From assembly GCA_913009335.1 (NCBI GenBank), contig CAJVXN010000010.1, forward strand, positions 1-56,336: 56,336 nt of DNA. Direction: 5' to 3'. The notes under the pieces were generated by a model that did no database searches, was not told the DNA's origin, and saw only the letters and a program-made list of their open reading frames with translations. The first letter of the stretch is position 1, and each line of letters starts with the position of its first letter. Positions 2,463-2,626 of this stretch are shown here, piece by piece. The translations under genes were made by a program, and so were the position numbers. The DNA comes from an uncultured bacterium. Lineage in GTDB: Bacteria > Omnitrophota > Gorgyraeia > Ghiorseimicrobiales > Ghiorseimicrobiaceae.

Positions 2463-2626
2463 AACCCGAATCGTGCAATAGACGTGAAAACCGAGACGTA
2501 ACATATTGGGTTAGATTGCCTTGAAGAAAACGCAGGCATACCTTTATGGTACGGCGAGGCTTTTTGAAAGGCAAGATGGTTTAATGGGTTACGTCGAATT
2601 CCGCGATCTATTGCATAATTCGGGTT
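2463..2626 (+). repeat. 164-bp structured repeat, copy 1 (terminal inverted repeats, nested internal stems)
   Basis: AACCCGAAT..TGCAATAGA / TCTATTGCA..ATTCGGGTT ends; GACGTAAC/GTTACGTC and TTGCCTT/AAGGCAA internal stems; second copy at 52317-52480. Confidence 0.9.

Follow-up and report, generated by a model that had tools for sequence, protein, structure and literature searches.

Bacterial MITEs (non-autonomous miniature transposons) are usually seen as internally deleted insertion sequences. Among the described families, ERIC (IRU), a 127-bp enterobacterial MITE, acts at the RNA level in an orientation-dependent manner, through mRNA stability and an RNase E site, according to passages of PMC2229807 and PMC10969869. 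The same passages describe the Correia, or NEMIS, elements of Neisseria, whose transcript forms a stem-loop that RNase III cuts at the terminal repeats, and they present both families as altering mRNA processing or stability. Part of PMC10969869 describes the hairpin MITEs QMITE1 and QMITE2 of Coxiella burnetii, some of which yield small RNAs. As for end and target types, piggyBac, a relative of the IS1380 family, combines CCC-type ends with TTAA targets, and IS1380 is used as outgroup to it (PMC10813416).

The element described here resembles each of these in part. Like ERIC and YPAL, a 168-bp Yersinia palindrome, it is small and mobile and folds from end to end; those elements have reported repeats of 7 bp, whereas its own are 18 bp long and match IS1380. 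Unlike them, it has an interior in which covariation was measured between genera and whose core recurs in hairpins of other phyla; an RNA-level role is predicted from its sequence. It is a MITE with hairpin-forming sequence, as are Correia/NEMIS, the hairpin in our case being predicted, but the ends and duplications differ (TA at the termini of Correia/NEMIS; PMC2229807). It is also of a size with QMITE1 and QMITE2 as given in part of PMC10969869; unlike it, QMITE2 has 7-9-bp duplications and 23-29-bp repeats, and that part of the paper reports no cross-phylum core. Its terminal repeats and TTTAA/TTAAA-type target match those of the IS1380 family, from which it differs in having no transposase gene and an interior that is unrelated beyond about 19 bp. 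At most, the element may work like ERIC and Correia/NEMIS, a likeness of kind that makes it a member of neither family. No published account of it was found in the literature searched by motif and by topic.

The window (the whole stretch of 56,336 nucleotides that was analysed) is the entire contig 10 of a draft genome (G000; 1.88 Mb in 67 contigs, 92.6% complete). A sequence-only reading of it had reported two repeat copies, at 2463-2626 and 52317-52480, of the same length and 95% identical. Length and identity were confirmed, and the repeat is real, chance being excluded. Its limits had to be narrowed, since the two outermost bases on each side belong to the duplicated target, so that the element proper measures 160 bp (Table 1). 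Both copies are genuine, but they are part of a larger set: genome search revealed five full copies, 95-98% identical, at unrelated places and on both strands, and a covariance model of a second subfamily (R2, below) added three diverged A-type copies (C4:19304-19473, C25:1539-1708 and a partial one at C13:150). Two deletion derivatives of about 32 bp retain the element ends, one in the window (C10:46219) and one at C23:2278. The outer sequence of the element reads CCCGAAT...ATTCGGG, and terminal inverted repeats of 18 bp are present in all full copies; together with the target duplication and the near-identical copies at unrelated sites, these are the traits of a MITE. No ORF of at least 90 aa lies inside either window copy, and by eye the shorter frames across the hairpin are broken by stops and by single-base length changes between members. 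In certain copies of subfamily A an in-frame ATG could open a reading frame through the hairpin; this was rejected as coding, because the same stops and one-base length changes interrupt it, again judged by eye. At the start of contig 13 (L008, C13:1-181), the A-type fragment directly adjoins AATGATACGGCGACCACCGAGATCTACACTCTTTCCCTACACGACGCTCTTCCGATCT, which we take to be an Illumina adapter, and hence an assembly artefact.

Table 1. Features of the two element copies and their surroundings (window coordinates; gene names from reading translations)
Feature	Position	Strand	Basis
Oxidoreductase-like gene, divergent, upstream of copy 1	1282-2199	-	translation read
Terminator-like hairpin before copy 1, directly abutting it	2438-2462		terminator scan
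Left target duplication, copy 1 (TTAAA)	2460-2464		sequence; family-wide 5-bp duplication test
Element copy 1, 160 bp between duplications	2465-2624	+	sequence, alignment, genome search, fold
Left terminal inverted repeat, copy 1, CCCGAATCGTGCAATAGA	2465-2482	+	follows the pattern of the IS1380-family end CCCGGATTTTGCAATAGA
Central hairpin AAACGCAGGCATACC-loop-GGTACGGCGAGGCTTTTT, common to hairpins of other phyla	2528-2566 (limits approximate)	+	sequence comparison
Right terminal inverted repeat, copy 1 (reverse complement CCCGAATTATGCAATAGA)	2607-2624	-	sequence, IS1380-end comparison
Right target duplication, copy 1 (TTAAG, one mismatch)	2625-2629		sequence
msbA, after copy 1	2641-4431	+	translation read
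32-bp deletion derivative, same ends, flanks TTTAA / CTTAA	46219-46250	+	repeat search
fdhD-like gene before copy 2	51439-52227		translation read
Left target duplication, copy 2 (TTTAA)	52314-52318		sequence; duplication test
Element copy 2, 160 bp	52319-52478	+	sequence, alignment, fold
Right target duplication, copy 2 (TTTAA)	52479-52483		sequence; duplication test
Promoter-like site downstream of copy 2, nearest the next gene	52503-52531		promoter scan

Of 27 copies, 15 have 5-bp flanks that are identical at every position (5/5), where permutation predicts 6.1 and none of 10,000 permutations reached the observed number; this count is a lower bound, because the script misplaced the right ends of several copies. 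The targets are TTTAA and TTAAA, rarely ATAAT or ATTAT. For G371 and G005 elements with TCCC...GGGA ends, the outer bases of the flanks mostly differ along with the ends (ATAAT/ATAAT, ATTAT/ATTAT), as a 5-bp duplication predicts. A three-base duplication (TAA/TTA) suits most copies and was dropped, since 5 bp also accounts for these co-changing outer bases. As CCC ends and a duplication of 4-5 bp suggested IS1380, we searched 392 genomes of the class for the transposase family PF13701. A complete IS1380-family element of 1438 bp (L134) has the ends CCCGGATTTTGCAATAGA and CCCGGATTTTGCAATAGC (...AGC) with TTAAA outside; another (L135) carries CCCGGATTTTGCATTAGG at both ends; and those of G259 (L122, L125, L127) end in CCCAAAAA(C/T)TG(C/T)AGTTGA, L122 having the end CCCAAAAACTGCAGTTGA with TTTAA outside. 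Three of these transposases score as IS1380 above the NCBIfam cut-off (NF033539). The ends of L134, L135 and L122 match element ends in G142, G371, G177 and G259, and in the first three of these genomes (CCCGGATTTTGCA(A/T/G)TAG) the match is near letter for letter; the window copies' own ends diverge further from those of IS1380. Beyond about 19 bp the IS1380 elements and the hairpin element share nothing, and a covariance model search found no hairpin inside the IS1380 loci. No IS1380 transposase (PF13701) was found in the window's own genome, a 93% complete draft, or in most element-bearing genomes, which are draft assemblies; an end-pattern search of the latter for an autonomous parent returned just short derivatives, nested insertions and contig ends, with no transposase. 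Given the matching terminal repeats on complete IS1380 elements in related genomes, the element is best read as a trans-mobilised MITE, very probably moved by a borrowed transposase of IS1380 type.

Alignment of the five full copies with one diverged full-length relative in G005 gave 14 pairs with compensatory change, and the covariance model R1 was built from these six sequences. It matched in 14 of 392 class genomes, at a nearly constant length of mostly 165-170 nt. Some of these genomes contain several copies, G232 and G371 having seven matches apiece when opposite-strand and partial ones are counted. Two subfamilies were distinguished: B, with the window copies, G005a, G232 and G371, and A, with G142, G150, G177, G190, G260 and others; R2, built from subfamily A, matched in 24 of 392 genomes of the phylum sample. 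Short derivatives come in same-length pairs within a genome (75 bp at G003:C57:42015 and C66:63541; 74 bp at G232:C93:4625 and C212:3260; about 32 bp for the G000 pair), which suggests that shortened forms transpose by themselves; the 75-bp and 32-bp derivatives likewise suggest that the interior is dispensable for transposition. Two element copies in G232 (L112 on C200, L113 on C107) have unrelated palindromic elements nested within them, the insert in L113 being flanked by repeated TGGAAGTCG.

All the nested stems listed by the sequence-only reading are present in the predicted fold of both window copies. The predicted energy is -70.7 kcal/mol for copy 1 (z = -8.3) and -77.5 kcal/mol for copy 2 (z = -10.3), a stability that none of 200 shuffles attained. 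The CA>TA change it had noticed in copy 2 does turn a G-C into a G.U pair on the + strand, the column pair 17-156 holding GC four times and GU twice. In an 11-sequence alignment of subfamily A, standard pairs make up 93.8% of the cells; two-sided compensatory change affects 36 of 62 pairs, against a shuffled mean of 13.4 and 10-14 when slid (0 of 500), and covariation scores 0.399, compared with 0.170 after shuffling, none of 500 shuffles reaching the observed value, both under a control that leaves shared ancestry in.

The strongest rival to selection on an RNA is a palindrome kept complementary by template switching. The element would then be a plain MITE, a long imperfect DNA palindrome without RNA function, in which arm-to-arm template switching during replication mimics compensatory change. 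Such correction is a known mutational process, and the hairpin-slippage-like junctions of the deletion derivatives, the 32-bp form, which joins the left end to the opposite-strand arm, and the lack of sense bias to genes in the class all agree with it. Arm copying should, however, erase internal loops, whereas loops whose two sides do not pair have been kept (one subfamily has ACCGAG/GAATTCC, the other GGATGAAG/TATTCGCC, and the core itself GnA/GAG); it should act equally on both strands, whereas the mismatches are strand-biased; and the same core persists across phyla. Template switching thus accounts for the two-sided changes but not for the conserved loops or the strand bias, which weighs against this explanation, and we regard it as rather unlikely.

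The strand bias emerged from a test in which the arms were aligned with scoring alike for both strands and isolated mismatches were counted, weighted by sequence cluster; an earlier version that used alifold structures had taken on a bias from the RNA energy model and gave way to this strand-symmetric one. On the + strand of the class set, G.T exceeds A.C (34.8 vs 10.9; 12 clusters to 2, p = 0.013) where composition predicts a 1.26-fold difference, and G.A exceeds C.T (41.9 vs 5.6; 14 clusters to 1, p = 0.001) where it predicts 1.55-fold. Among the matches listed from other phyla, the excess of G.A over C.T recurs (34 clusters to 3, p = 1e-7), and that of G.T over A.C is only weak (22 clusters to 12, p = 0.12). 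A double-stranded palindrome has no reason for a strand preference; a transcript has one. DDE transposition works on double-stranded DNA, which favours RNA as the molecule that folds.

Strand specificity would also be expected of a hairpin of single-stranded DNA that serves recombination, as the target of an HUH enzyme (IS200/IS605, REP-RAYT) or an integron integrase: attC sites and REP hairpins fold in this way, with bulges and mismatches, as the element is predicted to do, and the G.T and G.A excess is compatible with DNA too, where these mismatches are likewise better tolerated. The terminal inverted repeats, the 5-bp duplications and the matching IS1380 DDE elements misfit HUH or integron chemistry, however, and derivatives without the interior appear to have been mobile, which makes this explanation very improbable. 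The preferred reading of a strand-specific RNA fold agrees with the earlier impression that the element is more RNA-like than a bare TIR element, as indicated by covariation far above the shuffled and slid controls, strand-biased mismatches and conserved loops. Of the two labels then offered, MITE or novel RNA element, both are supported, mobility by the target duplications, the IS1380-matching ends and insertion in either orientation, the RNA-like fold by covariation and strand bias. The lack of covariation proposed as the mark of an ordinary MITE was not what we saw, covariation being strong, while both orientations and target duplications do occur as in a MITE. No Rfam 15 family matched the window element above its gathering threshold, and a loose threshold gave chance-level matches alone.

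Both window copies do lie in sense before a gene, as had been remarked, but this does not extend to the family: among class elements between co-directional genes, 7 are sense and 9 antisense (rough ORF calls, related elements kept in). With no preference for sense, a role in cis within host mRNAs becomes less likely. Among the matches listed from other phyla (L156-L275), the folded strand is sense in 14 cases and antisense in 35 (p = 0.004, on rough ORF calls and with related elements kept in); if this bias holds, selection would be acting against sense insertions, in keeping with an effect of the hairpin on transcripts. A riboswitch-like cis-regulatory leader of msbA and of the gene after copy 2 would explain the sense position of the window copies; against it, orientation to genes is random in the family, the neighbours of the two copies differ, copy 1 follows a terminator-like hairpin, copy 2 precedes a likely promoter and an Rfam match is absent. 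We give this leader next to no credence. The placement of copy 1 inside an msbA leader is doubtful, given the abutting terminator-like hairpin, and the suggested tie to msbA regulation is unsupported, as is any cis-regulatory or sense-gene role. A small-RNA gene scattered through the genome under a promoter of its own, its transposon ends being incidental, would suit the steady length of about 165-170 nt in two subfamilies and an orientation independent of neighbour genes. Neither window copy contains a promoter-like or terminator-like site on the + strand, however, and the element boundaries are exactly the transposon ends, so that such a gene appears highly unlikely.

The core of the hairpin was searched in a genome collection as the pattern AGGCATACTN{3,9}GTATGTCGAG, which returned at least 120 stretches where about 10 are expected by chance (our own estimate). 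Among the matches listed, the core sits in the middle of long hairpins whose outer arms vary by group. In Nitrospira, Desulfobulbaceae and some Gammaproteobacteria they are CCCGCATTATTCATGA or CCCGCATTTCTCAC, flanked by CTAG/TTAG; Desulfobacterales have AGAAGCYATCTCAAAA, and Clostridia AAGGCAATACCGCAC and others. Also among the matches listed, 41 of 110 hairpins have CAAGGC on the left (2.2 expected from shuffles), 52 of 110 an AACGCAG-like sequence on the right (2.8 expected) and 32 of 110 both (0.03 expected). R2 found 28 matches in 43 such core loci (best E = 2e-11), these loci having been picked by the core. Two bridging forms occur in the class: 186-bp elements of G470 and G211, which combine IS1380-type ends with the CAAGGC/AACGCAG frame, and 155-bp elements of G282 with the quite different ends CCAGGAGGCTGTCCGAGAA. 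No Rfam match was found in the 18 other-phylum loci tested.

The core AGGCATACT-loop-GTATGTCGAG thus recurs across several phyla in hairpins whose ends are of at least four kinds, and its common descent across groups is likely from sequence comparison. Its presence in end-variable hairpins, together with the two bridging forms, led us to a wider reading, for and against which we find the case evenly balanced: the core, often framed by CAAGGC/AACGCAG, may be a mobile RNA module that is not tied to one transposase and hitch-hikes on whichever is present. On equally balanced terms, such a module would span Desulfobacterales, Nitrospira, Clostridia, Gammaproteobacteria, Chlamydiae, Acidobacteria, Spirochaetes and the window's class, on at least four unrelated kinds of ends. 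A search by end pattern for parental elements in Nitrospira and Desulfobulbaceae gave one decayed IS1380-like locus with a CCCGCATATTTCAC end, in G394. In one Desulfobacterales genome (G397, via L162) a 144-bp version that ends in AGAAGCYATCTCAAAA is present about 50 times, this end matching 51 times forward and 59 times in reverse against 0 and 1 for the control; no PF13701 transposase was found in that genome.

For the window element itself, we consider it probable that mobilisation of IS1380 type is combined with a separate interior that folds as a selected + strand RNA hairpin. The repeat would be a MITE whose CCC(G/A)...TGCA(A/T)TAG ends are recognised by a DDE transposase of the IS1380 family, whether encoded elsewhere or once present, which would insert it at TTTAA/TTAAA and duplicate 5 bp. 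Its interior would be a separate module of about 120 bp rather than a remnant of an IS1380 insertion sequence; transcribed from the + strand, the module would form one long hairpin with conserved internal loops, and selection would keep this fold through compensatory changes. We infer the enzyme, the transcription and the selection via RNA from the features set out above. Its most likely function is one exerted as RNA: the module would influence the processing or stability of the transcript that hosts the insertion, or alternatively serve as a protein-binding hairpin that aids persistence of the element; by analogy, an RNA-level hairpin of the ERIC/NEMIS type is our best guess. With an interior unlike the matching insertion sequence, a one-strand fold under apparent selection and a core common to hairpins of distant phyla, the element makes it testable whether some miniature transposons are vehicles for selfish or useful RNA and not decay products, and many-copy families, such as that of about 50 in one Desulfobacterales genome, offer a ready system for the test.

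Several other features were noted in the window. A second dispersed palindromic repeat, CCCCGTTAGAGATAG...CTATCTCTAACGGGG, is complete at 52231-52297, between the fdhD-like gene and copy 2, with matching stretches at 13467-13492 and 48107-48132. A direct repeat of 33 nt (91% identical; 9611-9643 and 10741-10773) and an inverted repeat pair of 37 nt (81% complementary; 4574-4610 and 5683-5719) are unexplained. Finally, a group I catalytic intron (Rfam RF00028) lies at 8641-8888 and matches the full length of the model with 92.1 bits.
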